From Thalassotalea euphylliae (lineage in GTDB: Bacteria; Pseudomonadota; Gammaproteobacteria; Enterobacterales; Alteromonadaceae), in NCBI RefSeq assembly GCF_003390395.1, contig NZ_QUOV01000001.1:1302001-1366000 (forward strand): DNA of 64,000 bases, read 5' to 3'. A program made the translations under genes and the position numbers. The first letter of the stretch is position 1, and each line of letters starts with the position of its first letter. Below are positions 10,700 to 30,574 of the stretch, in pieces. The notes under the pieces are model-generated. The model made no database searches. It was not told the DNA's origin and saw only the letters and a list, made by a program, of their open reading frames with translations.

Positions 10700-12412
10700 T
10701 TAAGGATTTAGCGAGGGGAGGGGGCTAGCTGATTTACTCTGTTGCTGATTACTGATTCGATTGACGGCAGCAACGAGCGCTTTACTCGACCAATTTAATT
10801 GGCCTGCTGGCGTATTTGCAGCAAAACAATAACGTTGTAATTCATCAATCGCCATCTGCAGTTCAGTGTCTTGGCTAATCTGTTTTAACTCTGCGATGGT
10901 TTCAATCTTGGTAGCTTGGTTGTCGCTTTTGTTTACTTGATTGAACCATGGCACCAACAAACTAATTGCCTTGTGGCCATCTTGCTGCTTACAAGCCGCA
11001 ATCAAGGCAAGCTGTGCATTGCTAACGGTGCTTGGTGTCGCCTGAGGTGACTTGTCTTGACGGTTACTTCGACTGCGGCGCACTAATTCTGTGATAAGCC
11101 AAGCTAGGCTCGTCGCCACCCATAAACCTAAAAATAACCATTGCAACCAATGCGTTTGATAAACCGTTACGCTTTTACCTGAAGCAGGTGAAAAATTATT
11201 GCTAGCGATAGGGCTTGTTGAGGCAACAGCGGGGCTAATAGTTTGTTCACCTGCGACTACTTGAATCGTTTTAGCTGGCAATGTCGCCGTTTCGACGCGA
11301 TTAGTGATGGTGTTAAACCAAGGCACTTCCACCTCTGGCAAGGTGTATTCACCAGGCTGACTAACGACAATGGCAAAATTGCTCACCGCTTGGCTAACAT
11401 GGCGGCCATTGGTGGCATTTGCATGTGTCGTTTGTTGATCTGGATAGATTTTAATACCGCTTGACGCAGTTAGCTCAATATCTGGTAGCTGTTCTTCGCT
11501 AACACCCACTGCGGTTAATGTAATGGTGCGGGTGATAGGTTCACCCACTGTATAGTTTGTACCAGTCCCTTCTGATTGCCATTCTTCGTGCAAAGTTAGT
11601 AATTCACTCGGTAACCAATGGCCAATAAAGCTTGCCGGCATAGGTTTTACTTTGATTGGCAACTCATCACCTAACACGCTGATGGCCTTGCTTTCGCCAA
11701 AGCTTAGGAAGTTAGAGCGGCGACTAGATTGCATCATAATTTCGCCACTAAACATTGGCGAGCGCAGCACAAAATCACCACTTTGCTGTGGCGTGACTGA
11801 AAAAGTACGGGTAATTACGCGATAACGTTTACCATTAACGCGGGTATCTGATTCCTTGTCTTTGCCCACTTGAACAATGGTTGCCCCTTCAAGCTCTGGC
11901 TCGGTTAAACTGCCGCGTTTAAGTTCAGCGCCAATATGAATATTGACGGTCAGCGTCAGCATTTGTTGCACATAAACTTCGGTATTTGAAACTTGTGCGG
12001 TAATAAATACGTCTCGCTGCTGGCTCGCTGCAGGGTCATTGGCATCAAGCACTGTCAGTGTGATTGGAGTCGTGTATTGGTCTTCTATCGATAGGGTAGG
12101 AATGGTGATATTTCCCATCCGACGAGGGATAAGCACGGTTTGCCAAGTGGTCGTACGTGTGGTGTTAAAATTCACCATGCTAGTTTGTGAGCTAACCGAT
12201 GTGCGACCAACGATAAAATCGGCAAGTAGTGGCGAAGTATCAAGTGCATTAGCGTCAACATCATCATCAGCGACAACGGTCAGTACCACAGACTCCTTAA
12301 CCGTGACTGGGTTTTTATCGACACTGGCGGTGACTTTCGTTAGCGCTTGGCTTGCTGGTGAAAAACTTAGCCCTAGCATTAGCAAGGCTGCTAGCCATAA
12401 CATTCTTACCAC
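10700..12412 (-). CDS. batD: BatD-family protein
   Basis: Last gene of the MoxR/Bat operon. It is an exported, membrane-anchored protein of 570 residues. A signal peptide (WLAALLMLGLSFSPASQA) is followed by repeated beta-sandwich modules starting TKVTASVDKNPVTVKESVVLTV. A transmembrane helix lies near residue 425 (WLQWLFLGLWVATSLAWLI), and a cytoplasmic helical tail ends the protein. I keep the GTG at 12412, with GGAG upstream; an ATG at 12403 gives the same signal peptide. It overlaps the batB/C stop by 7 bp. BatD is known as a partner of the Bat VWA proteins (first linked to aerotolerance in Bacteroides). Its molecular role is unsettled. Confidence 0.88.
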   Translation of the reverse strand: MVRMLWLAALLMLGLSFSPASQALTKVTASVDKNPVTVKESVVLTVVADDDVDANALDTSPLLADFIVGRTSVSSQTSMVNFNTTRTTTWQTVLIPRRMGNITIPTLSIEDQYTTPITLTVLDANDPAASQQRDVFITAQVSNTEVYVQQMLTLTVNIHIGAELKRGSLTEPELEGATIVQVGKDKESDTRVNGKRYRVITRTFSVTPQQSGDFVLRSPMFSGEIMMQSSRRSNFLSFGESKAISVLGDELPIKVKPMPASFIGHWLPSELLTLHEEWQSEGTGTNYTVGEPITRTITLTAVGVSEEQLPDIELTASSGIKIYPDQQTTHANATNGRHVSQAVSNFAIVVSQPGEYTLPEVEVPWFNTITNRVETATLPAKTIQVVAGEQTISPAVASTSPIASNNFSPASGKSVTVYQTHWLQWLFLGLWVATSLAWLITELVRRSRSNRQDKSPQATPSTVSNAQLALIAACKQQDGHKAISLLVPWFNQVNKSDNQATKIETIAELKQISQDTELQMAIDELQRYCFAANTPAGQLNWSSKALVAAVNRISNQQQSKSASPLPSLNP

Positions 12413-14328
12413 TTTTTCTTAACTCCGTTGTTTGAACCTTCTTGGCGTCTTTTTTGGTATTCCAGCTGCATTTTATTACGCAGTAGTAAATAAGGATCGT
12501 CGGTCACTTTTTTCAGTAATTGCTGATGCTTTTGTGCTTGCTCTTGATCAATCGGCTGTTCACCTGCTGTTGCGGCTTGAGCCTGCTGCTGCGCATTATC
12601 TGTTGACTCTTCCTGTTGCTGATCACTTACAGCGCTATCTTGCGGCTGTTCATTTTGTGCAGCGTCTTGCCCTTGCTGCTCTGGTGGCTGAGAGCTGCTA
12701 TCTGAGCTGTTTTGCTGGTCATTTTGGCTATTTTGCTGACTCGAATTTTGTTGGTCATTGCCCTGTTGCTCATCATTTTGGCTCGCATCATTTTGCTGCT
12801 CTTGCTGACTTTGCGATTCGTCACCTTGTGAGCCTTGGCCTTGCTGATCGTTTTGTTGCTGATTTTCTTGCTGATTTTTTTGCGGATCGCTTTGTTGGTT
12901 GTCCTGATTCTGATCTGAGTTTTGTTGATTTTGCTGCTGGTTTTCTTGCTGACTCTTCAGCTGCTCAATTAAGGCTTTATTAGCCTGAGCATCGCTATGC
13001 TCCGGTGATAGTGCTAACGCTTGCTCATAAGCGTTAATGGCTTCGTCAAACTGTTGCATTTTGGCTAACGCATTACCTTGATTGTAGTACCCTTGCGCGG
13101 ATTCCAATTTACCAAATGCCTCAGCAGCAGCCTGATAATTGCCCGCTTTATACAGTGAAGAACCTTTCCACATTGGGTCGTTAAAAGTGTTAGCAGCCTG
13201 CTCAAATTCCTGCTGGTTGAACGCTTTTTGTCCTTGTTGATCTTTAGTTTGCCATAAGCTTTGCCAGTCAATCGCCATTGCTTGCTCGCTTGGCGTTAAT
13301 AATAGTAATGCGGGTAACACGCCCAAGAGTAAGCCACGGCGAAAATAAGGCAGCAGTAAAAGAAGTACAACAACCAGTAAGTAAGGACCTGCTTCTTGCC
13401 ACTGATCGCCTAAGTTTTGCTCGCTTTCGACCAGTTCATCGCTATCAGTACTGTCTTTATCCTGCACTCGTTTAGCATTGCTAATTAAAGCGTCAATATC
13501 ATAGCTGTCGCTGCGAATCGTTTGGTACTCGCCGCTACTTTTACCGGCAACGCCATATAAGAATTGATCTGATAATTTCGGCACGACAATAGCACCGCGA
13601 TCATCTTTCATCAGTTCACCGTTTGGTAATTTGATGGGGGCACCTGCTCGTGTGCCAATGCCAAGTATATTAACCGTATGCGGGTATTGAGCTGACCAAT
13701 CATTTAAATCTTTAACGTCTTCTTGGTCGATACCGTCGGTAAACCAATAAATATCCCCTTCAACATGCCCCGCATTGGCTAGCATCTGCTGGGCAAGATC
13801 AAGTGCAGCTAACGGATTGCTACCTAGTGCTGGCATTAACTCTGGGCTTAACGATGGCAATAATAGTTTAATGTTATTGATATCTTGAGTTAGCGGGCTA
13901 ATAACAAATGCATCACCAGCATAAGCTACTAAACCTATGTCTCCTTCGTTCAGGTTGTCGAGTAAATCAACGGCCTTAAAACGGGCTCTGGTTAAGCGGT
14001 TAGGCGCTAAGTCAGTGGCATACATGGAATAGGACATATCCATGACAATCACTGAGCCACGTTCAACTTGATAAACTGGCTGGGGCAACTTTTGCCATGT
14101 TGGACCAGCCAAAGCGACTGTCGCTAATATAAAAATCAGGCTGGCGGGAACAACGGATAAACCTTTGGTTGGGCCACCTTGCTCCATCATGCGTACTGCC
14201 AAATGTGGCGGTAAAATGTTAGACCAGCCGCTGTGACTCACTTGCAAGCGTTTGACTAACCAAATAATTAGCGGTAGTGCGAGTAGGGCGATTAACCACA
14301 GTGGTCGAATAAAATGAAATTCTGACAT
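12406..14328 (-). CDS. BatB-BatC fusion: VWA domain plus TPR protein
   Basis: A 640-residue protein. Two N-terminal hydrophobic segments precede a von Willebrand A domain (about 85-290) whose metal site reads DMSYS (DxSxS). Two more hydrophobic helices follow near 315-350, then a periplasmic TPR region (about 360-470; YYNQGNALAKMQQFDEAINAYEQALALSP). A roughly 120-residue tail of mostly Gln, Asn, Ser and Asp comes next, and a basic C terminus ends it. BatB and BatC are separate genes in Bacteroides; here they are one chain. The ATG follows GGGAG inside the end of batA. It overlaps batD. The VWA domain probably docks partners in a MoxR-controlled assembly. Confidence 0.9.
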   Translation of the reverse strand: MSEFHFIRPLWLIALLALPLIIWLVKRLQVSHSGWSNILPPHLAVRMMEQGGPTKGLSVVPASLIFILATVALAGPTWQKLPQPVYQVERGSVIVMDMSYSMYATDLAPNRLTRARFKAVDLLDNLNEGDIGLVAYAGDAFVISPLTQDINNIKLLLPSLSPELMPALGSNPLAALDLAQQMLANAGHVEGDIYWFTDGIDQEDVKDLNDWSAQYPHTVNILGIGTRAGAPIKLPNGELMKDDRGAIVVPKLSDQFLYGVAGKSSGEYQTIRSDSYDIDALISNAKRVQDKDSTDSDELVESEQNLGDQWQEAGPYLLVVVLLLLLPYFRRGLLLGVLPALLLLTPSEQAMAIDWQSLWQTKDQQGQKAFNQQEFEQAANTFNDPMWKGSSLYKAGNYQAAAEAFGKLESAQGYYNQGNALAKMQQFDEAINAYEQALALSPEHSDAQANKALIEQLKSQQENQQQNQQNSDQNQDNQQSDPQKNQQENQQQNDQQGQGSQGDESQSQQEQQNDASQNDEQQGNDQQNSSQQNSQNDQQNSSDSSSQPPEQQGQDAAQNEQPQDSAVSDQQQEESTDNAQQQAQAATAGEQPIDQEQAQKHQQLLKKVTDDPYLLLRNKMQLEYQKRRQEGSNNGVKKKW

Positions 14329-14330
14329 AA

Positions 14331-15332
14331 CTAGGCTCCCGAATCTCTAGATAAGCGGCCAGTAGGCAGGTTAAGCCACACTAAATGCAGTAACGCGATA
14401 ATCAGAGCTAACGCAAGTGGCCAGAAAAACAGGGCGGTCAGCGGGCGCATTTGTTGTTGATCTTGCTCAACAGGCTCTAGCTGATCGAGCAATTGATATA
14501 TCTGCGCCATTGATTCGCTGTCACGAGCACGAAAATAACGACCACCCGTTTGCTCAGCAAGTTCAGTTAAGGTTTTCTCGTCTAGCTCACTGGACGGGTT
14601 AACTTGGCGCATGCCAAAAAGCGAGCGTTGCAGCATAACATCTGCGCCAATACCGATAGTGTAAATGGTAATGCCTTTGGCAACGGCTAGTTCCAATGCT
14701 TGCTCTGGGGTAATTCTTCCTGCGGTATTTTGACCATCGGTGAGTAAAAGCAACACACGGTTTGACTCTTCTTTTTGCTCAAAGCGTTTTACCGCAAGGC
14801 CAATCGCGTCGCCTATCGCGGTTTTTTGGCCAACTAAACCAAGTACTGTTTCATCGAGCATTTGCCCAACGGTTTCGCGATCAAAGGTCATCGGAGTTTG
14901 CATATAAGCGTCGTCACCAAACAAAATTAGCCCAAGGCGATCGCCAACGCGGCGCTCAATAAAATCGCCAAGTAGTACTTTAAGCATTTGTAGGCGGTTC
15001 ACGGTACTGCCGCCTAGCTCCATATCTTCAACGCGCATACTGCCGGATAAATCAACGGCAATCATCATTTCACGGCCTTCGGTTGGAATATCAATGGGCT
15101 CACCTAACCATTGGGGGCGGCTGGCGGCAAGAACTAATAACAGCCAAACCAAAGACAATACGAATATCGGAAGTTTTTTATTGGTATCCGCTCGTGCACC
15201 CGCATCTAACCCTGTGACAAGTGCTGGGACTTTTAAGGCTGCAACTTGTGCTTGGCGCTTTGCCGGTAAAAAATACACCAACAGTGGCAGTGGCAGCGCC
15301 AATAATAAGTAAGGCCAAGCAAAACTAATCAT
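14331..15332 (-). CDS. batA: BatA-like VWA domain membrane protein
   Basis: A 333-residue protein with two N-terminal hydrophobic helices (residues about 5-25 and 55-70), a von Willebrand A domain (about 85-285) and a C-terminal transmembrane helix (about 308-325). The metal-ion-dependent adhesion site is intact: DLSGSM, then the conserved threonine in MTFDRETV and LLLTDGQNTAG. The Shine-Dalgarno CGAGG stands before the ATG. It overlaps the DUF4381 gene by 8 bp, and batB/C starts 2 bp after its stop, a tight operon. The family acts with MoxR ATPases in assembling or activating membrane or periplasmic complexes. Confidence 0.9.
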   Translation of the reverse strand: MISFAWPYLLLALPLPLLVYFLPAKRQAQVAALKVPALVTGLDAGARADTNKKLPIFVLSLVWLLLVLAASRPQWLGEPIDIPTEGREMMIAVDLSGSMRVEDMELGGSTVNRLQMLKVLLGDFIERRVGDRLGLILFGDDAYMQTPMTFDRETVGQMLDETVLGLVGQKTAIGDAIGLAVKRFEQKEESNRVLLLLTDGQNTAGRITPEQALELAVAKGITIYTIGIGADVMLQRSLFGMRQVNPSSELDEKTLTELAEQTGGRYFRARDSESMAQIYQLLDQLEPVEQDQQQMRPLTALFFWPLALALIIALLHLVWLNLPTGRLSRDSGA

Positions 15333-15894
15333 CTTGACCTCGAGTAGTTGTTTTCATCGTTTGTTTCACGTTGCTTTCGTTAGCTGTGTTTTTGTTATCT
15401 CTGTTTTTGTCATCTCTATTTTTGTTAGGGGCGGCAGCTAAAGCATGTTTTTTTGCAGGTAGTGCATGAGTTAACCAAAAGCGTATTGCTTGGTTAAATT
15501 TAACTAGGCTTAACTGCGTATTGGCTTGATAAATATCGCTAAGGTCTTGTGGCATCAGTTGTTCAAAGCTTGCTTGTTTTTTCAACGGCAGCGCGGCAAC
15601 TAAGAAGGCTCTTAACTCACGGCCAAATAAGCTGGCTGTTTCTTGCCGTGGAAAGTAACTAATCAGCGCTAATTTTAGCAATTGATTGCTGCTTTCTAAT
15701 GTTGTTGAGCTTGATAGCGCCGTTAGGATTTGTCGCTTTGTTTTACGCTCTTTACGATAGCGAATAAACGCTAGCACGGCCCACACAATGCAGCCAATAA
15801 TAAGCACCAATAGCAGCCACCAACCGGGCGCAATCGGCAAGTTAGTCACTTGCTCAGGCAGGTGAATATCTTTAAGTTGCGCTAACGGATCCAT
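15325..15894 (-). CDS. DUF4381 family membrane protein of the Bat operon
   Basis: A 189-residue protein with one transmembrane helix at about 24-44 (GWWLLLVLIIGCIVWAVLAFI), a basic stretch after it (RYRKERKTKR), and a cytoplasmic helical region ending in a Lys/Asn/Asp-rich tail. The tail is coded by an imperfect 15-nt tandem repeat (15385-15428), giving NKNRD-type repeats. It lies between the DUF58 gene (13-bp region of overlap) and batA (8-bp overlap), the usual place for DUF4381. Its role is unknown; it is presumably a structural member of the MoxR/Bat complex. Confidence 0.85.
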   Translation of the reverse strand: MDPLAQLKDIHLPEQVTNLPIAPGWWLLLVLIIGCIVWAVLAFIRYRKERKTKRQILTALSSSTTLESSNQLLKLALISYFPRQETASLFGRELRAFLVAALPLKKQASFEQLMPQDLSDIYQANTQLSLVKFNQAIRFWLTHALPAKKHALAAAPNKNRDDKNRDNKNTANESNVKQTMKTTTRGQDD

Positions 15895-16889
15895 TGGTGT
15901 GCTCCGTCTATCAGTTGTTGTTCGAGTGACTCCCCCGCAGATAAGGTCAGCAACCTTGCACCTGCTTGGCGAAACAGCTGTTTACGCGCTGCCATTAAGC
16001 TGTCAACTTTGGTTTGATAAGTTTGCGCGGCGTGCAGATCGCCCAAGGTTACCTGTTGACGTTGCTCACCGTCTGTCATTGCCACGTTGAGGCGCTGAGC
16101 AGAACTTGGCAGCGCCACTTCTAATGGATCAGTGATCAAGCAAACAATCAGCTCGCAGTGGCGACTTAATTGCGATAAATGGCGAACACTTTCGCTGCCA
16201 ATCGCATGCCCGTCGGTAATTAAATACACTAAGCTTCCGGGCTTAGCTAGTTGTCTTAGGCGCTGACAGTTATCGGCAAATGCGCTAACAAAATCTTGAG
16301 CCGCTAGGGCTTGCTGATTAGCAAAACTGGCGGCATGCATCGTTTCTAAGTGATGCAAATAATGTAATACCCCTTGCTTGCGCGAGCGAGGTTTGCATTC
16401 TTGGTGGGTGGTTTCGTTAAATACCATGCCACCTAATCGGTCGCCTCGTGCTTTTGCGTGCCATGCAACAAGGGCGGCAATATGGGCCGCTTGTACTGAC
16501 TTACACAACAACTGGCTACCAAATAACATGCTGGTGCTCAAATCGGTTGCAACCAGCACAGGGCGCTCAATTTCTTCACGATAAAGCTTGGTATGCGTTT
16601 TTCCGGTACGTGCGGTTACACGCCAGTCAATCGCCCGAATATCATCACCGTGCTGGTAATGACGCACTTCGTCAAATTCCATACCACGGCCTTTACTGCG
16701 CGATAAGTAATTGCCAGACATACGTGATTGCTGATTGCGCGATGCTTTTATATCAATCAAGCGGGTTTTACTTTGATAGCGCAAGAGCTCTTCAATACTG
16801 AGCGTCAGGCCATCGCTTTGTAACTCGTTTAAGGTTTGCGTTATTGCGGCAAACTTGCTTGTGTCGGCGGCGCGACTAAACCACTTCAT
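15882..16889 (-). CDS. DUF58 domain protein (VWA-like)
   Basis: A cytoplasmic protein of about 335 residues. The DUF58 core begins near RSKGRGMEFDEVRHYQHGDD with the hallmark IRAIDWRVTARTGK. It is followed by a VWA-like fold whose metal motif is DLSTSM. DUF58 proteins are encoded directly after moxR almost everywhere and are thought to be adaptors or clients of the AAA+ ATPase. GTG (16892) and ATG (16889) are adjacent; I chose ATG. It begins 11 bp after the moxR stop and overlaps the DUF4381 start. Confidence 0.92.
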   Translation of the reverse strand: MKWFSRAADTSKFAAITQTLNELQSDGLTLSIEELLRYQSKTRLIDIKASRNQQSRMSGNYLSRSKGRGMEFDEVRHYQHGDDIRAIDWRVTARTGKTHTKLYREEIERPVLVATDLSTSMLFGSQLLCKSVQAAHIAALVAWHAKARGDRLGGMVFNETTHQECKPRSRKQGVLHYLHHLETMHAASFANQQALAAQDFVSAFADNCQRLRQLAKPGSLVYLITDGHAIGSESVRHLSQLSRHCELIVCLITDPLEVALPSSAQRLNVAMTDGEQRQQVTLGDLHAAQTYQTKVDSLMAARKQLFRQAGARLLTLSAGESLEQQLIDGAHQWIR

Positions 16890-16899
16890 CACAAACCCA

Positions 16900-17856
16900 C
16901 TAAGCGATTGCCACCAAAGATAATAAGTGGCTGATCACTTGGTTCGTGGTCACGCCTTCGGCTTCGGCTTGGTAAGTTAGCAGTAATCTGTGTCTTAGTA
17001 CGTTATGAACAACGGCCTGAACATCTTCTGGGCTGACAAAGTCGCGATTATGTAACCAGGCACGGGCACGGGCACAGCGATCTAGGGCAATCGTGGCACG
17101 TGGGCTGGCGCCAAAGGCTAACCATTGTTTTAACTTGTCGTCATATTTTTCCGGCTGGCGAGTGGCAATAATCAAATCGACAATATATTGCTCAACCGCA
17201 GGTGCCATATGAATTTTTAAGACTTCTTCACGGGCGGCAAAAATTTCTTCTTGCGATAATGTACGCAGTGGCTTGCTTTCAGTTTTTAATGCTTCGCCAC
17301 GATTGAGCTTTAAGATTTCTAGCTCACTGGCAGCGTCTGGGTAGCTGACATCAAGGTGCATTAAAAAGCGATCAAGCTGGGCTTCGGGCAGTGGGTAAGT
17401 ACCTTCTTGCTCTAGCGGGTTTTGGGTTGCCATCACCAAAAACAGCTCGGGTAATTGATAAGTTTTACGACCGACGGTAATTTGCCCTTCAGCCATGGCT
17501 TCAAGCAGTGCTGATTGCACTTTCGCTGGGGCACGGTTGATTTCGTCGGCTAAAACTAGGTTTCTAAATAATGGACCAGACTGGAACACAAAGGTGCCAT
17601 CTTCTGGGCGGTAAATATCGGTACCAGTTAAATCAGCAGGCAAGAGATCAGGGGTAAACTGAACGCGATGAAAATCTGCCTCTAAGCCATCCGCTAACGC
17701 ATTTACGGCGCGAGTTTTGGCAAGTCCTGGTGGGCCTTCAACAATTAAATGACCGTTAGCGAGTAGGGCGATTAACAGGTTTTCGACCATATCTTGCTGG
17801 CCAATAATTTGTTGAGATAAGTGCTCTTTAAGAGTTGAAAAATGCTCGATAGTCAT
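16900..17856 (-). CDS. MoxR-family AAA+ ATPase
   Basis: A 318-residue AAA+ ATPase, first gene of the Bat operon. Walker A is GPPGLAKT (about residues 40-47) and Walker B is LVLADEINRAP. Sensor 1 is MATQNPLEQEGTYPLPEAQLDRF, a MoxR signature, and the AAA lid domain ends with the arginine-rich LRHRLLLTYQAEAEG. MoxR proteins act as chaperones that remodel or load cofactors into partner complexes together with VWA proteins. It is divergent from fadI across a 262-bp gap, which should contain its promoter. The Shine-Dalgarno is weak. Confidence 0.95.
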   Translation of the reverse strand: MTIEHFSTLKEHLSQQIIGQQDMVENLLIALLANGHLIVEGPPGLAKTRAVNALADGLEADFHRVQFTPDLLPADLTGTDIYRPEDGTFVFQSGPLFRNLVLADEINRAPAKVQSALLEAMAEGQITVGRKTYQLPELFLVMATQNPLEQEGTYPLPEAQLDRFLMHLDVSYPDAASELEILKLNRGEALKTESKPLRTLSQEEIFAAREEVLKIHMAPAVEQYIVDLIIATRQPEKYDDKLKQWLAFGASPRATIALDRCARARAWLHNRDFVSPEDVQAVVHNVLRHRLLLTYQAEAEGVTTNQVISHLLSLVAIA

Positions 17857-21873: not shown

Positions 21874-22074
21874 ATGTTGTTGCTAGTGGTTGTCTGCTCT
21901 TTAGTTTCTTCATTATTTTTTTACTGCCAAGCACTATCAAATGGTTTAGGGCGCAGACGTTGGGCGTTGGGTGGCTTAGTTTTTGGGCCAGCGTTATGGC
22001 CAATGTTTTGTATGAAAAAACGTATGAAAGTGAATAAAGCGTTTGGGTTTAATTACTTAATATTTAAAGCCTAA
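21874..22074 (+). CDS. Small hypothetical membrane protein
   Basis: A 66-residue protein not assigned to a named family. It has an N-terminal hydrophobic helix (residues 1-18), then a basic GLGRRRWALGG turn and a second hydrophobic segment (GGLVFGPALWPMF). A strongly basic MKKRMK and a short C terminus follow. The RRW-GLVFGP-WP-KKR layout looks like a real small inner-membrane protein with two helices rather than chance. It is isolated, with the fadJ terminator 200 bp upstream and no near neighbour on its strand. No good Shine-Dalgarno is visible (GGGTGTTGTATT before the ATG). Confidence 0.6.
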   Translation: MLLLVVVCSLVSSLFFYCQALSNGLGRRRWALGGLVFGPALWPMFCMKKRMKVNKAFGFNYLIFKA

Positions 22075-22388
22075 CGGCTATTGTCTTACGATTTTCTAGG
22101 TCGCTATACTCATTTTTTTTTGAGCTGGATTTGAGCTTATTTTAAGCGGACAGTTGCTTGGATTATGCTAAGTATCTACTTAGCTTCTTATATGGCTCTC
22201 TAAATAGATTTCCGCTGGGTTGCAGTAGCTATTATGAATTTCCTTTCTTGTCTTTGAGCATATGCTAATAACTGATAAGCGAACTTCCTTGTCGCATATT
22301 ATTTGATTAACTGTATAGCTATTAACGACTACTTAACTGTTTTCAAGTAATGGCCGACGTCAATGCGACGATTAATTGACTAGCTTTT
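22075..22388. other. Gene-free AT-rich region
   Basis: About 310 bp between the small membrane protein (plus) and the 34-codon gene (minus). I find no gene, clear terminator or repeat here, only T-rich stretches. A small RNA cannot be excluded. Confidence 0.5.
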
Positions 22389-22493
22389 TTATTTCCACCA
22401 CGTCGAAGCAGGTGCTTCTTTAAATTCAATCTTAGCCGCAATTGAATTTTCGTGATGTTTTTTATGAAAAAGCGATTTAATAAAGTTAATCAT
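22389..22493 (-). CDS. 34-residue peptide, translationally coupled
   Basis: A short open frame whose ATG overlaps the stop of the repeat-protein gene as TAATG. It encodes 34 residues: an amphipathic start (MINFIKSLFHKKHH), a mixed middle, and a C terminus ending PASTWWK. I do not recognise the family. The 1-nt overlap, balanced composition and paired tryptophans make it more than a random frame, but no homology could be checked. If real, it is made from the same transcript as the SQKRRESRI protein, probably by re-initiation. Confidence 0.5.
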   Translation of the reverse strand: MINFIKSLFHKKHHENSIAAKIEFKEAPASTWWK

Positions 22494-22798
22494 TAAATAC
22501 GGCTCTCACGACGCTTTTGACTGATACGAGACTCACGGCGTTTTTGGCTAACTAATTCTAGCTCTTCACTAATGCGAGATTCGCGACGTTTTTGACTAAT
22601 ACGCGATTCACGACGCTTTTGGCTTGCTAACTCAAGCTCTTCACTAATGCGAGACTCACGACGTTTTTGGCTAATACGTGATTCACGACGCTTCTGGCTA
22701 ACTAAAGTGGCTGAATCGCCATCAACAACTTGTTCTGTATCTACAATAGCAGGTTGTGTTAGTGACATTGAGATTGACATTAGAATAGAAGTTAACAT
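22493..22798 (-). CDS. SQKRRESRI nonapeptide-repeat protein
   Basis: A 101-residue protein of unknown family. Residues 1-33 are a mildly hydrophobic leader (MLTSILMSISMSLTQPA) followed by an acidic stretch. Residues 34-101 are six exact copies of SQKRRESRI, arranged in pairs separated by SEELELA and SEELELV (super-repeat of 25 residues). The repeats are highly basic and the linkers acidic, so alternating charge blocks, perhaps helical, are expected. I start at the ATG at 22798 with AAGGA nine bases upstream; a TTG-started frame to 22858 would add a basic N terminus that could turn the leader into a signal peptide. A good sigma-70-like promoter lies upstream. Function is unknown. Confidence 0.65.
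   Translation of the reverse strand: MLTSILMSISMSLTQPAIVDTEQVVDGDSATLVSQKRRESRISQKRRESRISEELELASQKRRESRISQKRRESRISEELELVSQKRRESRISQKRRESRI
22496..22699 (-). repeat. Tandem coding repeat (27-nt unit, 75-nt super-repeat)
   Basis: Six 27-nt units encode the same nine residues but differ at many synonymous positions (Arg CGT/CGC, Lys AAG/AAA, Glu GAA/GAG; Ser 7 uses TCA, TCT, TCG or AGC). The first four units are grouped in two 75-nt blocks that include the 7-codon linkers. Confidence 0.9.
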
Positions 22799-22830
22799 TT
22801 TGTTTTTCCTTATGGTTATTGATTTAATCC

Positions 22831-22858
22831 GTATAAGGTTTAGCCAAATGTATGCCAA
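22831..22858 (-). promoter_or_regulatory. Possible sigma-70 promoter (proximal)
   Basis: On the minus strand TTGGCA and TTATAC are separated by 16 bp, about 33 bp before the ATG of the repeat-protein gene. It is an alternative to the distal promoter. Confidence 0.35.
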
Positions 22859-22927
22859 TTTGATTTACTATGTTTTTGTTTTTCTATGTTGTTGTTTGTT
22901 AAGCTTTTATTGTGTTTTGTGTTGGTT

Positions 22928-22956
22928 TTATGAAGTGCCTAATACAAAGATGTCAA
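22928..22956 (-). promoter_or_regulatory. Sigma-70-like promoter of the repeat-protein gene
   Basis: On the minus strand a perfect TTGACA is followed after 17 bp by TCATAA. Transcription from here would give a leader of about 120 nt before the ATG at 22798 and would separate this unit from the large signalling gene upstream. Confidence 0.5.
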
Positions 22957-23018
22957 AATCCTGCCAAACAAGCGGCAAAGCTTAGCGCATCGAGGCAAAA
23001 TTTTGACGTACAAGTGAT

Positions 23019-26000
23019 TTAGCTGTTGATGAAGCTCGTTGATTTATCAGTAATTTGATAGCTTAGTAGGTACTTTTGGAAGTCATTTTCAGGTAATGGC
23101 TTACTATATAAATAACCTTGTAATTGCTCGCAGCCAAGGCCTGCTAAGAAGCTCAACTGATTATTATTCTCTACGCCCTCTGCAACAACTTGCATACCTA
23201 AGTTGTGAGCAATGGTTACTATGGTTGCCACCATGTTTCGACCTTGATCTGAGCTTTCAATATCGTCAACGAAAGCCTTGTCTATTTTTAACGTATTGAG
23301 TGGGAATTTCTTCAAATAAGCAAGAGAGGAGTAACCGGTACCAAAGTCATCCAAGGCTAAATGAATACCCATAGAGCGGATTTGCAGCATGGTATCAATA
23401 GCTTGCTGCGGCGAATCCATTACAGTGCCTTCGGTAATCTCAAGCTCTAAGTGCTTAGCCGGTAGCTGGCTTTCTTCTAAAATATTGGCAATCATCTGCG
23501 GCAAGTTAGGTTGTGTAAATTGTACCGCCGATAGGTTAACCGCGACACGACCATCAAATAACCCCGCATCTATCCAGCGCTTAGTCGCAAAACATGATTT
23601 TCTTAAAACAATTTCACCAATATCAATAATTTGCCCTGTTTCTTCTGAAATAGGAATAAACGCGAGTGGGCTGATAATGCCTTTGGTTGGCGTTTCGAAG
23701 CGCACCAAGGCTTCCATACCAGAGACTTTACCACTGGCAATGTCTATTTTCGGCTGATAGAAAACCGAGAAATAGTCTTCTTTTAAACCATGGCGAATAA
23801 GCGTTTCAATTTGAATACGCTTCACCGCTTGTTTATTCATTGAATCACTGAAGAATTGATATCGATTACCGCCATTGCCTTTCGCGTGATACATCGCGGT
23901 ATCGGCATTCTTGAGAAGTTCTGCTGGCGTCGCGCCATCTTCTGGATACAGCACAATACCAATACTGCTAAACAAGACGATTTCTTGGTTTTTAAGTTTT
24001 AATGGCTGAGCAATACAGTTAAGAATTTCTTTGGCGAGCGTTGTTACCGTATGAATATCATTGGTATTTTCAATAATTATACTAAACTCGTCACCACCAA
24101 GGCGATATACGCTAATACGTTTGCCGCCAACGCGAGCAATTCGTTTAGCTACCTCAACTAAGATAAGGTCGCCGACTTGATGCCCCATAGAGTCATTAAT
24201 TTTTTTGAAATTATCAAGATCGAAAACTAACAAGGCATGAGGAGTTTTGCTTTTCACCAAACGCTGTTGGTTCGCTTGGAAATATGAACGGTTGGGCAAG
24301 CCTGTTAGCGTGTCGGAATTCGCTAGGCGGCGCAGTTCAGCGTCTGATGCTTTTCGCGATGTAATGTCTGAAAATACGCCAACAAAATGCGAAATATTGT
24401 CGCCTTCGTCACGAATCACATCTAAGGTTAATTCACAGTAATAAAGCTCATTGTTGTGGCGCAAACTTTCAATTTCACCTTGCCAACTGCCTTCAACAAC
24501 CAACTGCTTTTTAATTGATTGCGTAAAATTTGCGGGGTAGCGGTTAAACTGCAATTGTTCGCCAATAACATCGGCTTTGCTTCTGCCAGTGATACGGCTG
24601 AATGATTTGTTAACATCAATGGTGTTAAATTGACGGTCGTAAATCACGACTGCGTCAGAGATGTTTTCAATGCACTTGGCAAATAATTTAAGCCTTTCTT
24701 CTGCTTTTTTTATTTGACTAACGTCTTTAAGGGTACCTGTCATTCGCAATGGCTTACCTTGCTCATTACGTTCAACCACTTTGCCGCGATCGAGCACCCA
24801 CACCCAGTTTTCTTGTTTATCTAGAACGCGATACGTTGTCTCGTAATGCTCAGTTTTGCTATCAAAATGATCTTCTAATGCGTTGGTCACCCGTTTGATA
24901 TCATTTGGGTGAATATTTGTTTGCTCAGTTCCTACATTACGTGTGCCATCTTGTGGGAACTCTAAAATGCCCCAGATATTTGAGCGGAATATTTTCTGAG
25001 TACGAATATTCCAGTCCCACATTTCATCACCACTGCCCCAAAGTGAAAGTTTTAATCGTTCTTCACTTTTCTTGATCTGGTAGTGATATTCGTGGCGATG
25101 TCGCAACTGCTGCAAAAAGTAAGCGCATAGTAGGATGCCCGCTAAGCCGTATAGAATCACCGCGCTTTTGTCTAACCACCACGGCGGGGTGATAGTAAAC
25201 GAAAGCTTAGTACCTTCAACTAGCGTCGGGTCAAAATGGTCAAAGACTTCAACTTCAAACGTGTATTCGCCGGAGCTTAAATTTGTGTAGGTCGCACGTC
25301 TGTTTTCGTTGTCAGCTTCAACCCAGCTTTCTTCTAATCCAAGTAAGCGGTAGCGGTATCTGGTTTGGTGTTTTAGCTTGGCATTAGGTGCAACAAAATC
25401 AAAGCTTAGCGGGAAATCTCGGTGACCTATGGTAAATGCTTTAGTATTCGCTAAATTCATAGGAAAGTGTTGGTCCGCAAACTGTTCTAGTATCTCAATG
25501 TTTTTATTCGCGATGTTGACTTTGCTGATGACAGGAGTTGATATCGACTGTGTTGTATTAAACAGCTGTTGTGGTTTGAATTTTACATAGCCTTTAGGGC
25601 TACCAAAATACGCCCAGCCTTCTTTTGTTAATAGCGCAGAGTGACTATTAAATTCGATGTGATCCAACCCATAATCAATATCGAACTGCTTTAAGGTTAA
25701 GCTGTTAACATCAATTGCGCCAATTCCCTTATTGGTCGCAAACCATAGCTGATTGTCAGGCGACATTAGTAAATCGGCCAAGTAGCTATTGCCCAAACCA
25801 TTGCCTTCGATGAAGTTTTTTACTTGACTGGTTGCTAAGTCAATATGGGTTAGGCCTTTACCGTTTGAAGCCAACCAAAGGCTGCCTTGGCTGAGTATTA
25901 AGTGGCTTACCGTTACTGAAGGTGAGTAAATATCGGCTAAAGAATAAATAAACTCGAATTTTTGCTGAGCAACTGAAAATTTATAAACGGCTTGGCTTTC

Positions 26001-27596
26001 GGTCAGAACGAGTAGACTATCGTTTGTGTGTTTCTGCAACAAAACGGCCGCTTGTTCACCGTCAGGCAGAAAAGTTAATACCTGCTCACTATTGCTGTTT
26101 AAACAGCTGACATTTCTTGCTGAGTCGATTTGGCAAAGGTGGTTGTTTAGAGCGACTAGCTCTTGCATTTTATGACTTGAAGCTATCCAAGCTTGAAAAT
26201 GTCGAAGTGTGAGCGACTCAGTATTGAATTCGAAAAGCTCTTGTGAGTAGCTTTTTAACCATAAACTATTACTGTCTTTAACGTGTACTTGCGCGACTTC
26301 AATGTTTAGCGATATTGGCTGAGCTAGCTCGGCATCAAGTGGTTGTTTAAACAGTTCACCTGATTCATTACTAAACCACAGGGTCCCTGTGCTGTCTTGC
26401 GCGAATGAGGTGAGCCAAAGATCATGTGTTAACTGCGTTCTTGGGCCAGTTTTAATCAGCTTACTGCTGTCTCTGTGCTTTTGAATACCGCCGCCATAGG
26501 TGCCAAACCATAAGTTACCAACCTTATCTTGATAAGATGTCATCACCCATGGCTCTTCAAAGCCATTCGGGGCTGCCCCTTTTTTCGCGACTTGGCTGAT
26601 TGATAGCGTCAATAAATCAATGGCATTGATACCTTCTTTGGTTCCAAGCCATAGTTTGCTGCCCTGGGTCGGCAATAAAGTTCTGATTTGGTTTGACAGT
26701 AATTGGAAGTCGGTCGATTGTTGGGTGATATGGTGTTTAAGCTGGTAGCTCTTATCAACTATAAAAATACCGTTGTCTGTTGCTAGCCAGTAGTTTTCGG
26801 CAATTTCTTTAATATCAAATAATGAAGTAGCATCAATAGTGAAATTCCATTGGCTCGTTTTTTCACCAGCAATCTTTAAGTGTTTTATTAAACTAAAACT
26901 TTGATTGGTAAGATAAACACCATCATCAAAAGTACCTAACCAAATATTTTTTTTGTCGTCTTGGTAGATGCTTTTTACTGCTTTAAAACTTTCGCCTGTT
27001 GTGCCATTTTCTATCCGTGTAAATTGACCATTAGCGGTATTGAACTTATGCAGGCCTGATTCTGTCGCGACAAGCAGTTGAACACCATCAACGTTGGAAA
27101 CAACTTCATAAATAGTCCAAATAGTGTTGTCGGATAGGGCATTGGTATTGCTTTGATTAGAGGAGGTAAGAGCGTTTTCCTGATCGGTGGTGAAATTATC
27201 AAAGTTATTACGGGAAGGATTAAATCGGCTGAGGCCTCCTTTTGTACCAACCCACAAGGTATTTTCGCTGTCGATAAATAAGGTTCGAATGTAATTGTCA
27301 GCTACAGAATTAGGATCTTGAACATTGTGTCGATAATGCACAAATTCAAACCCGTCATAACGGTTCAAACCATCGGCTGTTGCGAACCAGAGAAAGCCAT
27401 TACTGTCTTGGACAATAGAAAATACATAACTTTGTGATAGGCCATCAGAGGTGGTGAATTGCTGAAAAGTTGCGTTGTTATCGAAGTGGCTGGCGTGCGA
27501 AATTTTGCTAACCAATACCGACGATATTGATACAGCAATTAACAGCCAAAAAAAGAAAACTCTATGTAAAGCTCTATGTAAAGAAAGAACAGCCAA
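23019..27596 (-). CDS. Periplasmic propeller / PAS / GGDEF / EAL hybrid signalling protein
   Basis: A 1525-residue inner-membrane c-di-GMP enzyme. In order: a signal peptide (VFFFWLLIAVSISSVLV, cleavage near SHA); a periplasmic two-component-regulator propeller (about 40-700, opening FTTSDGLSQSYVFSIVQDSN); a Y_Y_Y domain (about 730-820); a transmembrane helix (about 830-850); a PAS_3-type domain and a second PAS domain; GGDEF (motif RLGGDEF intact); and EAL (EALVRF, LELEITEG, LDDFGTGYSSL, KIDKAFV, VAEGVE all present). Both cyclase and phosphodiesterase activities are possible. The only credible start is TTG at 27596, because an in-frame stop lies four codons upstream and no early ATG exists. 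A 12-nt tandem duplication codes LHRALHR in the signal peptide n-region. It stands alone. Confidence 0.93.
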   Translation of the reverse strand: MAVLSLHRALHRVFFFWLLIAVSISSVLVSKISHASHFDNNATFQQFTTSDGLSQSYVFSIVQDSNGFLWFATADGLNRYDGFEFVHYRHNVQDPNSVADNYIRTLFIDSENTLWVGTKGGLSRFNPSRNNFDNFTTDQENALTSSNQSNTNALSDNTIWTIYEVVSNVDGVQLLVATESGLHKFNTANGQFTRIENGTTGESFKAVKSIYQDDKKNIWLGTFDDGVYLTNQSFSLIKHLKIAGEKTSQWNFTIDATSLFDIKEIAENYWLATDNGIFIVDKSYQLKHHITQQSTDFQLLSNQIRTLLPTQGSKLWLGTKEGINAIDLLTLSISQVAKKGAAPNGFEEPWVMTSYQDKVGNLWFGTYGGGIQKHRDSSKLIKTGPRTQLTHDLWLTSFAQDSTGTLWFSNESGELFKQPLDAELAQPISLNIEVAQVHVKDSNSLWLKSYSQELFEFNTESLTLRHFQAWIASSHKMQELVALNNHLCQIDSARNVSCLNSNSEQVLTFLPDGEQAAVLLQKHTNDSLLVLTESQAVYKFSVAQQKFEFIYSLADIYSPSVTVSHLILSQGSLWLASNGKGLTHIDLATSQVKNFIEGNGLGNSYLADLLMSPDNQLWFATNKGIGAIDVNSLTLKQFDIDYGLDHIEFNSHSALLTKEGWAYFGSPKGYVKFKPQQLFNTTQSISTPVISKVNIANKNIEILEQFADQHFPMNLANTKAFTIGHRDFPLSFDFVAPNAKLKHQTRYRYRLLGLEESWVEADNENRRATYTNLSSGEYTFEVEVFDHFDPTLVEGTKLSFTITPPWWLDKSAVILYGLAGILLCAYFLQQLRHRHEYHYQIKKSEERLKLSLWGSGDEMWDWNIRTQKIFRSNIWGILEFPQDGTRNVGTEQTNIHPNDIKRVTNALEDHFDSKTEHYETTYRVLDKQENWVWVLDRGKVVERNEQGKPLRMTGTLKDVSQIKKAEERLKLFAKCIENISDAVVIYDRQFNTIDVNKSFSRITGRSKADVIGEQLQFNRYPANFTQSIKKQLVVEGSWQGEIESLRHNNELYYCELTLDVIRDEGDNISHFVGVFSDITSRKASDAELRRLANSDTLTGLPNRSYFQANQQRLVKSKTPHALLVFDLDNFKKINDSMGHQVGDLILVEVAKRIARVGGKRISVYRLGGDEFSIIIENTNDIHTVTTLAKEILNCIAQPLKLKNQEIVLFSSIGIVLYPEDGATPAELLKNADTAMYHAKGNGGNRYQFFSDSMNKQAVKRIQIETLIRHGLKEDYFSVFYQPKIDIASGKVSGMEALVRFETPTKGIISPLAFIPISEETGQIIDIGEIVLRKSCFATKRWIDAGLFDGRVAVNLSAVQFTQPNLPQMIANILEESQLPAKHLELEITEGTVMDSPQQAIDTMLQIRSMGIHLALDDFGTGYSSLAYLKKFPLNTLKIDKAFVDDIESSDQGRNMVATIVTIAHNLGMQVVAEGVENNNQLSFLAGLGCEQLQGYLYSKPLPENDFQKYLLSYQITDKSTSFINS

Positions 27597-27787: not shown

Positions 27788-30574
27788 TTAGTATTTTCGC
27801 TCCGTCTTTTGGCTTAGTTCACTTGGTTCGTTAATAATTATGGCGCCTCTATCTTCCCATTGTTTACTTTGCGTTTTATTCTCAAGTGAAACTAATGTTA
27901 ATCGGCTAATGAAGTCTTGATTGTCAGTTTTACATAGTACCTTGTCGATAAACGCGATGACTTGTTCTAGCGATATGTCATTGATAGCTTCAAGCAAGCG
28001 TTGCTTGCGATCAAAGGTAAAATCTTGATTGGATATTGCTGCCCAAAAGCGTTGGCTTTTTGTGCGTAAGCTAGTGTCCTTCTCTGCTAATTGTGCACTT
28101 AGACCAAATTTAAACGTTTGCCATTGCTCATTGGTGACACTTGACAGTTTATCACTCACCGTTGCAATAAACTCATCCATAGCGCTGACTAATTCAACCG
28201 GTGAGGTATGTGGTGACTGGATGTAAAATGCAATGCCAGGGTAGCGGTTAATAGGTATATAACCGACATTAACTAAGTATCCATATTGCTTTTCTGTGCG
28301 CATTTCTTGGAAAAACAGAGGTGCGAGAAAATGACTGGTTAGCATGGTTAGTGCCGTTGAATGCTCGTCTTTTTCTGTTTGTGGGTAATAGCACACGGCT
28401 GCGTGATCATGCTCGGGCAGTAACACTGGCACTATATATTCTTGGTGCCCATCGATATCAATAACAGGGCAGCTAACGTGATTACGACCATCAAAGCAAT
28501 GATTAAACCCGTCTTCTATTTGCTTGGCTATTGCTCGAGCGTGACTTTCTAGCCAGTTGCCGTGGATCAACACCTCAAGGGTGATATGTTCAAATAGTCT
28601 GCCACAAAAGCGCATAAACTGAGCAAACGAGATTGAGCTAACCGTTTCCAATAATTCACTTGCGGCCGGATTGTGAGGCTGCATTAATGAGCTCAAGGTC
28701 GCAAATAGTTGAGAAATAGACTTGTTCTTGTCAGCATTTTGCCACTGCTTAACATGTAATGCTTTGCTCTGCTCAAATGCCTGCTCAGTAAAGTTATGTT
28801 GAATAAGGCTAGCTAATAGCCTTTCTAGTAGCAAAGGTTGCTTTTCACTGAGCCCAGACAATTGCAGTGTCATCCCACCTTGATGGGCATAGAGTTGATA
28901 GTGAATGCCTGCTAACTCAGCGTCATAATGTTCTTCAATCACTTGATCACTAAAGATATCAACAAACATGCGCGTCATGACAATGTTAGCGGTAGATGCA
29001 ATAGCAAGAGGGGAATCTATACCAATATAGATGTATCCTTTGGGCACTTTATAAGTTGTATCTTGCTTGTACCAAACACATAAGCCGTTGTGGTTGTCAA
29101 TTAACGCAGGCTTGCTTGACTCATGGCTGTGAGGCCAAACCTGAGGCTTGTCTATGATATAAGGGTTTGGTGCTGGTAGCTTTAAGTCTTGATGCACAGT
29201 AATGGTTTGCCAGCGCTCTAGCGTTTGAGGCGAAATGGCACTCACCTGATAGGGCACTTGATACCAAGGGCTTAACTGATCACATTGGTAATTTTGCCCG
29301 ATTTTGACTATGCGACAGTTGTTGGGAGATAAAAAGGTTAACAAGTGCTCTACGCTGTCATCGCACATACCTGCCATTAAATAATCGCCGGCGATATAGT
29401 CTTCCACCGGGTAGTGTTGCATGTTCACCGCGAGCTGGTTGACTGAGTCGAGCGGCTTGAGCCTTTCCATATAGTCAAAAGCGATGCGTGCGAGCTTTTG
29501 CTTTTCAATGTAGTAAGTGTGCGATAACGGTTTTGATTTTAATAACTGAATATAGCTAAAAACGATGTCGAGAATACCATCAATTTCTTGCTCGCCTTGT
29601 TCGGTAAGCGAGATGCTGATATTGAAATCTTTGAAGTTTGAGCCGTTTATCCCAGAGCCTGCGGTAAGCCCCAAAGCTAAATGCTGTTGCTTGAGTAGCG
29701 ATAGAATACTGCCTTTGCCTTCATGTCCTAGCAGGTAAGTAAGCACTGATTCCGGCTTGTGCTGGTAATATTCATCGATACCAGGCATCGCAAAGCTGAC
29801 AATTAATTGTCTTTCTTCTTTGACAGGGGTAACCGATATTTCTTGTGCTAAGTGCTCAGCTAGATATAAAGGTGTGGTGATCGTTTTTTTATCACCACCA
29901 GTCTTGATGGATGAAAAGTACTGTTTAGCGAGCTGCTCTAATTCCTCAAGTGGCTGCGGCCCTTCGATGGCAAGGGTCATTAAATTAGCGCGATAATTTT
30001 GTTCAAAATAAGCAAGAATGTCTGCTTGTGCGCTTTGCCCATCGCGATCGGCTAAGGTTTCAAGGTTGCCGACAGAAAACTGCGAAAATGGGTGTGCTTG
30101 GTTTACGGTTGCCTTGTGAACATCGTACAAGCGTCTAATGTCGTCTTTTAATTTTAATTTGAACTCGGCATCAATATTTTGTCGCTCAGTTTCGACAAAT
30201 TCTTCGCTCAGTAGCGGGCAGATAAAAAAGTCAGCAAATCTTGCTAACGCTTCTGGTAAGAAATTACTTTGAATGTCAAAAAAGAAGCAGGTGTGCTCGG
30301 TGCCTGTCCATGCATTATGATGGCCACCGTGCTGACTGATAAATTTTTGGTATTCACTACCATCGGGATAATTTTTAGTGCCCAAAAACAACATGTGCTC
30401 AACAAAATGCGCTAGGCCTTCGCGGTCTCTAGGGTCATCAAAATGACCAGCATTAATTGCCAAAGCTGCCGCGGCTTTTTCAGACTCAGTGTTTTGTACA
30501 AGTAGCACTTGTAAACCATTGCTAAGTGTCAGCGGCTGGTATTGTTTTTTGTCATTAGGGCTTTGTTTCAACAT
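27788..30574 (-). CDS. M16 family zinc metallopeptidase (pitrilysin/insulysin-like)
   Basis: A 928-residue M16A peptidase. The inverted zinc motif is H56-F-V-E59-H60, with the downstream glutamate in ETERQNIDAEF completing the site. The long four-domain layout with a catalytically inactive C-terminal half is typical of protease III and insulysin. It degrades peptides in a closed chamber. Unlike E. coli protease III, the N terminus (MLKQSPNDKKQYQPLTL) has no signal peptide, so a cytoplasmic location is likely. The ATG has AGGA upstream. It is a single gene, divergent from sixA. Confidence 0.92.
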   Translation of the reverse strand: MLKQSPNDKKQYQPLTLSNGLQVLLVQNTESEKAAAALAINAGHFDDPRDREGLAHFVEHMLFLGTKNYPDGSEYQKFISQHGGHHNAWTGTEHTCFFFDIQSNFLPEALARFADFFICPLLSEEFVETERQNIDAEFKLKLKDDIRRLYDVHKATVNQAHPFSQFSVGNLETLADRDGQSAQADILAYFEQNYRANLMTLAIEGPQPLEELEQLAKQYFSSIKTGGDKKTITTPLYLAEHLAQEISVTPVKEERQLIVSFAMPGIDEYYQHKPESVLTYLLGHEGKGSILSLLKQQHLALGLTAGSGINGSNFKDFNISISLTEQGEQEIDGILDIVFSYIQLLKSKPLSHTYYIEKQKLARIAFDYMERLKPLDSVNQLAVNMQHYPVEDYIAGDYLMAGMCDDSVEHLLTFLSPNNCRIVKIGQNYQCDQLSPWYQVPYQVSAISPQTLERWQTITVHQDLKLPAPNPYIIDKPQVWPHSHESSKPALIDNHNGLCVWYKQDTTYKVPKGYIYIGIDSPLAIASTANIVMTRMFVDIFSDQVIEEHYDAELAGIHYQLYAHQGGMTLQLSGLSEKQPLLLERLLASLIQHNFTEQAFEQSKALHVKQWQNADKNKSISQLFATLSSLMQPHNPAASELLETVSSISFAQFMRFCGRLFEHITLEVLIHGNWLESHARAIAKQIEDGFNHCFDGRNHVSCPVIDIDGHQEYIVPVLLPEHDHAAVCYYPQTEKDEHSTALTMLTSHFLAPLFFQEMRTEKQYGYLVNVGYIPINRYPGIAFYIQSPHTSPVELVSAMDEFIATVSDKLSSVTNEQWQTFKFGLSAQLAEKDTSLRTKSQRFWAAISNQDFTFDRKQRLLEAINDISLEQVIAFIDKVLCKTDNQDFISRLTLVSLENKTQSKQWEDRGAIIINEPSELSQKTERKY

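Follow-up and report, generated by a model that had tools for sequence, protein, structure and literature searches.

A gene for a small repeat protein (P1) and an overlapping gene for a 34-residue peptide (P2) form a conserved two-gene unit in Thalassotalea euphylliae and its relatives. In 16 genomes of the Colwellia group, the repeated core peptide of P1 co-segregates with the sensing half of a large membrane sensor encoded next to the unit. The core copies are identical as peptides and diverged in their codons, a sigma54 promoter precedes the unit, a hairpin motif follows it, and the gene order is syntenic. These data suggest that P1 and the co-varying membrane sensor are an undescribed peptide-and-receptor signalling pair. 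In the reading that we favour, with confidence just short of even, P1 is a multicopy precursor, and the neighbouring GGDEF/EAL sensor recognizes its species-specific cationic core as cognate ligand. The features of the unit, found in a window of 64,000 nucleotides (the whole stretch of DNA that was analysed), are listed in Table 1.

The favoured reading would work as follows. The sigma54 promoter, under an activator of the FleQ/FlrA type, would transcribe P1 and P2, and CsrA would bind their mRNA at the 3' hairpin. The hydrophobic N-terminus would export P1, and the exported protein would be cut into identical peptides of 7-10 residues. A freed core peptide would bind the propeller/Y_Y_Y sensor and set either synthesis or breakdown of c-di-GMP. 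P2, a small peptide that starts with a helix and has a conserved tail, would aid export, maturation or membrane docking. The FleQ-type/sigma54 and CsrA-type elements would tie the unit to the choice between motility and biofilm, which agrees with a c-di-GMP output.

To our knowledge, peptide pheromones with matched receptors are a Gram-positive theme, and the c-di-GMP enzymes with large periplasmic propellers that we know of mostly have no known ligands. If the favoured reading is true, the ligand of such a c-di-GMP receptor can be read from the genome in dozens of species. Ligand/receptor swaps would then exist naturally between sister species, and the reading could be tested directly with a synthetic 9-mer.

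Table 1 Features of the P1/P2 unit and its neighbourhood (positions within the window)
Feature	Position	Strand	Description
66-aa membrane protein	21874-22074	+	Convergent with the P1/P2 unit; no Pfam match
3' RNA hairpin	22271..22304 (stem-loop 22279-22295)	-	gcga[CAAGGAAGT]tcgc; CsrA-consensus type
P2	22389..22493	-	34-aa peptide MINFIKSLFHKKHHENSIAAKIEFKEAPASTWWK, ending PASTWWK; start overlaps P1 stop as TAATG
P1	22493..22798	-	101-aa precursor-like protein; overlaps P2
P1 N-terminus	Start of P1	-	MLTSILMSISMSLTQPA, uncharged and hydrophobic, followed by six SQKRRESRI with SEELEL spacers
P1 core copy 1	22673..22699	-	
P1 core copy 2	22646..22672	-	
P1 core copy 3	22598..22624	-	
P1 core copy 4	22571..22597	-	
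P1 core copy 5	22523..22549	-	
P1 core copy 6	22496..22522	-	Last codon abuts stop codon
sigma54 -24/-12 promoter	22842..22857	-	TGGCATACATTTGGCT; GG-N10-GC, 59 nt before P1 ATG
Candidate FleQ-type box	22952..22965	-	GGCAGGATTTTGAC; 7 of 8 half-site bases, by eye
Candidate FleQ-type box	22994..23007	-	GTCAAAATTTTGCC; 7 of 8 half-site bases
Sensor	23019..27596	-	Reg_prop propeller / Y_Y_Y / PAS / GGDEF / EAL protein; 1525 aa from putative TTG start
M16 peptidase	27788..30574	-	Insulinase/pitrilysin family; upstream of sensor

Conservation of the two-gene unit

The preliminary description of this locus had reported a 101-residue repeat protein joined by TAATG to a 34-codon frame ending in PASTWWK, and its coordinates, strand and overlap were confirmed. 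It had also known of no match for either product; indeed, neither P1 nor P2 of T. euphylliae matched Pfam or NCBIfam at the curated cut-off. T. euphylliae P1 as a database query found no relatives. A Colwellia P1 query found 13, all of them without a Pfam domain and either unnamed or called “hypothetical protein”. Among eight P1 proteins of relatives scanned, the seven-copy P1 of genome G013 matched DUF4097 (Toastrack, PF13349) with 37.4 bits (cut-off 22.9) and E 2.4e-9; this family was not listed for the other seven and did not match T. euphylliae P1. A few others matched unrelated families with E below 0.001, under the cut-off. We read all these matches as repeat-driven, and no described family convincingly matches P1.

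The idea of a system had been made to depend on the survival of the 34-codon frame in relatives. The frame is intact, without stops, in each of the six remaining genomes of the genus. Matches of the P2 profile reach 97 of the 395 genomes of the family and 24 of its 52 genera (E up to 0.1, at which the weakest rows are partly chance). In a sample of the order, 11 of 394 genomes match at E up to 0.01: eight belong to the family, two are weak, and one (G752) is from another family of the order. In a sample of the class, four of 369 match, two within the family and two weakly. The G752 locus (L119, G752:C3:1-2500) has a P2-like reading of 37 residues ending in REVPAGSWWS (E 3.6e-5) close to the contig start, and its P1 region lies beyond the sequence available. 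By eye, the DNA downstream of this reading resembles the gene of the 66-residue neighbour.

The pair was found in Colwellia, Cognaticolwellia, Thalassotalea, Thalassomonas and Pseudocolwellia (22 loci). A script placed P1 directly upstream of P2 in 62 of 66 distinct units; three of the remaining four (L017, L024, L031) sit at the edge of a contig, and P1 of the fourth (L064) was found on reading the locus. Thus the comparisons support the earlier proposal that P1 and P2 belong together as a conserved pair of genes for which no family has been described. In the g52 genomes L034 and L062-L065 there are two tandem P2 genes, and these loci also lack the 3' motif.

AlphaFold modelled P2 with low confidence (mean pLDDT 66.8) and gave it a short N-terminal helix. 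By eye, the linker motif of P1 (L/I-D/E-I/V-x-E) looked homologous to the P2 tail IEIKEM; a profile comparison returned a probability of 0.1, and no homology is claimed.

Repeats of P1

The claim that two thirds of P1 are perfect repeats stands for the six identical nonapeptides and not for the fraction: the six SQKRRESRI copies cover 54 of 101 residues, and two thirds is reached only by counting the SEELEL spacers. The copies are identical as protein, their codons differ in all six, and the synonymous difference between them is 0.74. Thus the repeats are not a recent DNA duplication.

The same holds among relatives. We took as the core the word that is repeated exactly and then sought its copies with at most two mismatches. 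Copies were counted in 53 of the 62 P1 genes; L078 was excluded as partly N, and the others have no core repeated three times. Within genes, 274 of 278 copies are identical as protein, with a median synonymous difference of 0.33 and a mean nonsynonymous difference of 0.011. Between genes the core changes: 50 distinct cores occur among the 53 genes, for example GTRRNQVRI, GTRKDQVRI, SKRGLRI, GKSHGKVRI, GDARGTRRL and GSTRIRI. Identity of the copies in spite of synonymous divergence indicates that every copy is constrained to a single exact peptide and that, as species diverge, all copies are replaced jointly. The earlier suggestion that the repeats bind RNA/DNA or membranes draws no support from any of these observations.

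The N-termini of P1 are similar across relatives (M-L-S-S-[LI]-I-L-S-like), and residues 1-15 contain no K or R in any of the 62 proteins. In this they are unlike an ordinary Sec signal peptide, which counts against the export reading. Additionally, no exporter or processing protease for P1 was identified, which counts against the core being a ligand.

It is also conceivable, though somewhat unlikely, that P1 stays uncut as a membrane-anchored or periplasmic accessory subunit, its repeats binding the propeller sensor multivalently and tuning or clustering it. The coevolution and synteny data given below also fit such a subunit. The number of core copies per P1 varies from 1 to 14, basic and acidic blocks alternate along the protein (by inspection), and the uncharged hydrophobic N-terminus could serve as an anchor. 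However, 51 of the 62 P1 proteins end in K or R plus an aliphatic residue, i.e., in the last pair of the core, and inspection of relatives' P1 shows that the spacers vary more than the cores; a released peptide fits this better. A single C-terminal core also suffices in four Thalassomonas-group (g14) genomes (L018, L023, L042, L045).

The adjacent sensor and its neighbourhood

The sensor gene lies directly upstream of P1 on the same strand and adjoins the P1/P2 unit in 55 of the 57 genomes fetched. Since the sensor has two hydrophobic stretches, at residues about 9-33 and 810-831, its propeller/Y_Y_Y half is predicted to be periplasmic. With the sensing half outside the inner membrane, P1 or pieces of it would need to be exported. 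Two genomes, G338 (L199) and G349 (L188), keep P1 and P2 with a shared core SAKRGSRRL and have no GGDEF-EAL match in the approximately 5 kb fetched upstream, which we count against the peptide-ligand reading.

Computed on the linked sensor alone, the median pairwise identity among 40 genomes is 0.33 for the propeller, 0.51 for Y_Y_Y, 0.66 for PAS, 0.79 for GGDEF and 0.86 for EAL, i.e., a fast-changing sensor is joined to a slow-changing output. The sensing half was matched at E<=1e-100 in 28 of 147 relatives, 27 of which have P2. In four P2-bearing genomes (G014, G033, G037, G051) the sensing half does not reach this threshold, and G033 has the protein next door. The sensing half and P2 mark the same clade, therefore their co-occurrence is weak evidence alone.

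The M16 peptidase gene occupies the same place in 19 of the 20 relatives looked at; in the exception, G019, there is none upstream of the sensor. The peptidase is a candidate for turnover or processing but may simply be an old neighbour. A relative of the 66-residue membrane protein accompanies 61 of 66 unit loci. Elsewhere in the window, a run of minus-strand genes (10700-17856) encodes BatD and VWA/TPR proteins, recognized by Pfam, and a MoxR-like AAA protein, labelled so from reading the sequence.

Small overlapping genes, cationic repeats and species-specific sequences would also suit a toxin-antitoxin or bacteriocin-immunity pair. We regard this pair, which would agree with the earlier idea of P2 as a partner or antidote, as very improbable: the unit keeps the same chromosomal neighbourhood across genera, and P2 is conserved while the P1 cores diverge. 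Moreover, the similarity of P2 shows no significant correlation with that of the sensor (r=0.17, 218/3000; for Y_Y_Y, 166/3000).

Co-segregation of the core and the sensing half

We compared core similarity with domain similarity by partial Mantel tests from which output-domain similarity and synonymous identity were removed. The main set comprises 16 genomes of the Colwellia group whose P1 has a 9-residue core of the GT type in two or more copies; L088 (one core copy), L101 (no GGDEF-EAL on the contig) and duplicates were dropped. The propeller was restricted to residues 420-740 because the named loci do not cover the whole sensor.

In this set the core follows Y_Y_Y with r=0.49 (0/5000 permutations) and the propeller with r=0.25 (89/5000). 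The domains used as placebo show no such signal: r is -0.05 for PAS, 0.02 for GGDEF and 0.17 for EAL (556/5000). Within the propeller, the window 580-659 gives r=0.37 (0/5000), and the other three of four 80-residue windows give no signal (565-634 of 5000), which is counted against the peptide-ligand reading.

The core-sensor test was also run on other sets. With 17 genomes, i.e., the 16 and the distant genome G002, it gives r=0.31 (16/2000). In all 40 genomes the signal is weak (r=0.16, 104/2000), and GGDEF/EAL identity is the better correlate of the core (r=0.35). In the group g52 (n=11) r is positive, 0.13-0.31, and not significant (p 0.10-0.23), and in g38 (n=10) there is no signal (r -0.24 to -0.02). 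The results for the 40 genomes, g52 and g38 are counted against a ligand. For g38, the output tree (71/1000) suits the core better than the sensor tree does (383/1000). The co-segregation therefore rests on one well-resolved group.

Within these 16 genomes, trees lead to the same pattern. Core parsimony requires 20 steps on the sensor tree, a count reached by 1/1000 permutations; on the output tree it requires 24 (398/1000). Eleven genomes have Q at core position 6 and five do not. The two groups, picked after seeing the data, are separated by 34 of 265 variable propeller columns, by two of 36 in Y_Y_Y and by none of the 165 variable columns in TM/linker, PAS, GGDEF and EAL; the state changes only about three times, and permutation does not fully model descent. 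The five non-Q genomes are one clade in the sensor tree (100/100), and this clade is rejected by the output-domain DNA (AU p 7.7e-6). Two groupings at position 5 have one and six separating propeller columns. Position 3 has a separating column nowhere and needs an additional step on the sensor tree, and both facts are counted against the peptide-ligand reading.

Sister pairs were also chosen after seeing the data. L084/L086 and G309/L085 are sisters by output domain and have different cores; the sensor data reject their sisterhood (p 1.6e-5 and 3.8e-97, respectively). G309 and L085 share 0.98 identity in GGDEF+EAL and 0.48 in the sensor, whereas G309 and L083, which have the same core, share 0.75 in the sensor. 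A ligand-receptor pair predicts exact, codon-diverged cores and a sensing half that varies together with the peptide, in contrast to the output domain encoded between the two.

Not all of P1 behaves in the same way. Its first 16 residues do not follow the sensor (1640/3000), and the 12 residues just before the core do (r=0.38, 0/3000). As the pre-core leader also follows the sensor, P1 may travel with it as a cassette, not by residue-level matching. This suits the view, unlikely in our estimation, that the sensor and P1 are exchanged by recombination and functionally independent, P1 acting elsewhere in a FleQ/CsrA regulon, e.g., in motility or biofilm. The lack of a significant signal in g52 and g38, the two genomes that keep P1/P2 without the sensor next door and the independence of the regulatory elements from the sensor point the same way. 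However, the output domain lies between the sensing half and P1 and, by the AU test of the non-Q clade, was not exchanged with them, thus two separate segments must have moved together under such linkage. The fadJ gene, available for 14 of the 16 genomes, likewise agrees with the output domain in supporting L084+L086, with many other fadJ branches open.

Comparison with known systems

If the core is indeed the ligand, the closest counterparts are Gram-positive. In the ComX-ComP and AgrD-AgrC cassettes, a hypervariable peptide gene neighbours that of a membrane sensor. The sensor diverges in its sensing half and is conserved in its output half, and the peptide and the sensing half co-segregate between strains. 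P1 and its sensor share the variable peptide by a membrane sensor and the diverging sensing half; their co-segregation is seen in the 16 Colwellia-group genomes and is not significant in g52 and g38. They differ in the tandem multicopy core, in the Gram-negative host and in the sensor, where Reg_prop/Y_Y_Y is fused to GGDEF/EAL and not to a histidine kinase. Also, unlike those cassettes, no modification enzyme was noticed beside the P1/P2 unit.

In its layout P1 is similar to yeast precursors of the alpha-factor type, which have a leader and several identical peptide copies with spacers and are processed at KR sites. No relation is claimed: P1 is bacterial, and the KR processing pattern was not seen here. 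The sensor shares its Reg_prop and Y_Y_Y domains with the Bacteroides hybrid two-component systems and differs from them by its GGDEF/EAL output; the known ones are reported to regulate polysaccharide use. In the titles and abstracts of open-licence PMC articles we found nothing describing such a peptide/sensor system.

A broader proposition is that the Colwelliaceae-type genomes share a family-wide peptide language. In it, a multicopy precursor would release a species-specific cationic peptide of 7-10 residues, and a single-protein receptor would read it directly and turn it into a c-di-GMP signal. Controlled by FleQ/sigma54 and CsrA, peptide and receptor would pass from one species to another as matched cassettes (pherotypes). 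We offer this tentatively, as possible and somewhat below an even chance.

Promoter and 3' hairpin

Three elements carry the functional signal of the unit: its sigma54/FleQ-type promoter, its 3' hairpin and the sensor next to it. The earlier interpretation, sound as to a conserved unit without a described family, had missed all three. It had seen good promoters upstream. A sigma70 scan of the minus strand from 22800 to 23100 found none, and there is a sigma54 -24/-12 element in their place (Table 1). An element with GG-N10-GC stands 53-74 nt before the P1 start in all 40 units; it was scored as at least 8 of 11 against TGGCAC-N5-TTGCW-like elements, a threshold reached by 166 of 4000 shuffles.

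Farther upstream are candidate FleQ-type boxes. In Pseudomonas aeruginosa such boxes have GTCA-N6-TGAC half-sites in a 14-bp core (PMC10723142). The P1/P2 unit has the same layout upstream of a sigma54 promoter. Unlike there, its activator is putative; a FleQ-family protein is encoded in the T. euphylliae genome (95.8 bits). GTCA-N6-TGAC with at least 7 of 8 bases occurs within 200 nt upstream in 30 of 40 units and in 3% of shuffles. The N6 spacing was first spotted by eye, after which all gaps were scanned: with the other spacings from 2 to 12 a box is found in 0 to 5 of the 40 units. Five of six g52 genomes are without a 7-of-8 box. The exact pattern of box and sigma54 element has no matches elsewhere in the T. 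euphylliae genome.

Downstream of P2, the motif ACANGGA is found within 170 nt in 52 of 66 units (3.3% of shuffles). These 52 units were chosen for the motif, therefore its invariance among them is by construction. With per-sequence folding in which enclosing pairs are counted, GGA falls in a hairpin loop in 43 of the 52, compared with approximately 30% of flank shuffles; a stricter folding criterion, which misses bulged stems, gives 21 of 52 against 24%. In one fixed register covariation of the hairpin is not significant (score 171/500), and 82.8% of cells are paired against 80.3% (23/500). A hairpin model run against the T. euphylliae genome gave one hit above chance, at the P1/P2 unit (150 of 1593 first-look candidates were scored). 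The motif is absent from all seven g52 units read. In the g14 loci L018, L023, L042 and L045 no simple hairpin was seen at ACAAGGA, and in L018 and L023 there is GGGAATGTCG with its complement further on.

The SELEX ligand of CsrA is RUACARGGAUGU (PMC7652899). The hairpin matches this consensus: its loop has ACA and GGA, and GU usually comes next. It lies 3' of the last gene, P2, and not in a 5' leader; binding of CsrA to it is putative. The csrA gene is present in the T. euphylliae genome.

Mimicry of CsrA by the repeats, which would then act on the Csr system, is extremely improbable. It draws on cores such as GTKRNQVRI, which resemble a stretch of CsrA, and on the CsrA-type hairpin of the mRNA. 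Cores such as SQKRRESRI and GDARGTRRL have no such resemblance. Membership of the CsrA family (PF02599) was rejected: only one of eight relatives' P1 matched it, with E 0.65 and 10.5 bits against a cut-off of 27, as the weakest of the eight families listed for that relative, and T. euphylliae P1 has no Pfam match to it.

A CsrB-type sponge RNA downstream of P2 was likewise rejected, since one conserved hairpin is found there and not many GGA hairpins. A separate CsrB-like RNA with 18 GGA motifs is encoded elsewhere (L104, G000:C1:2916899-2917251, minus strand); it scores 45.9 bits to Rfam CsrB, below the gathering score of 71. Upstream of this RNA lies an open frame with GEGKCGEGKAKGKCGEGK-type repeats.
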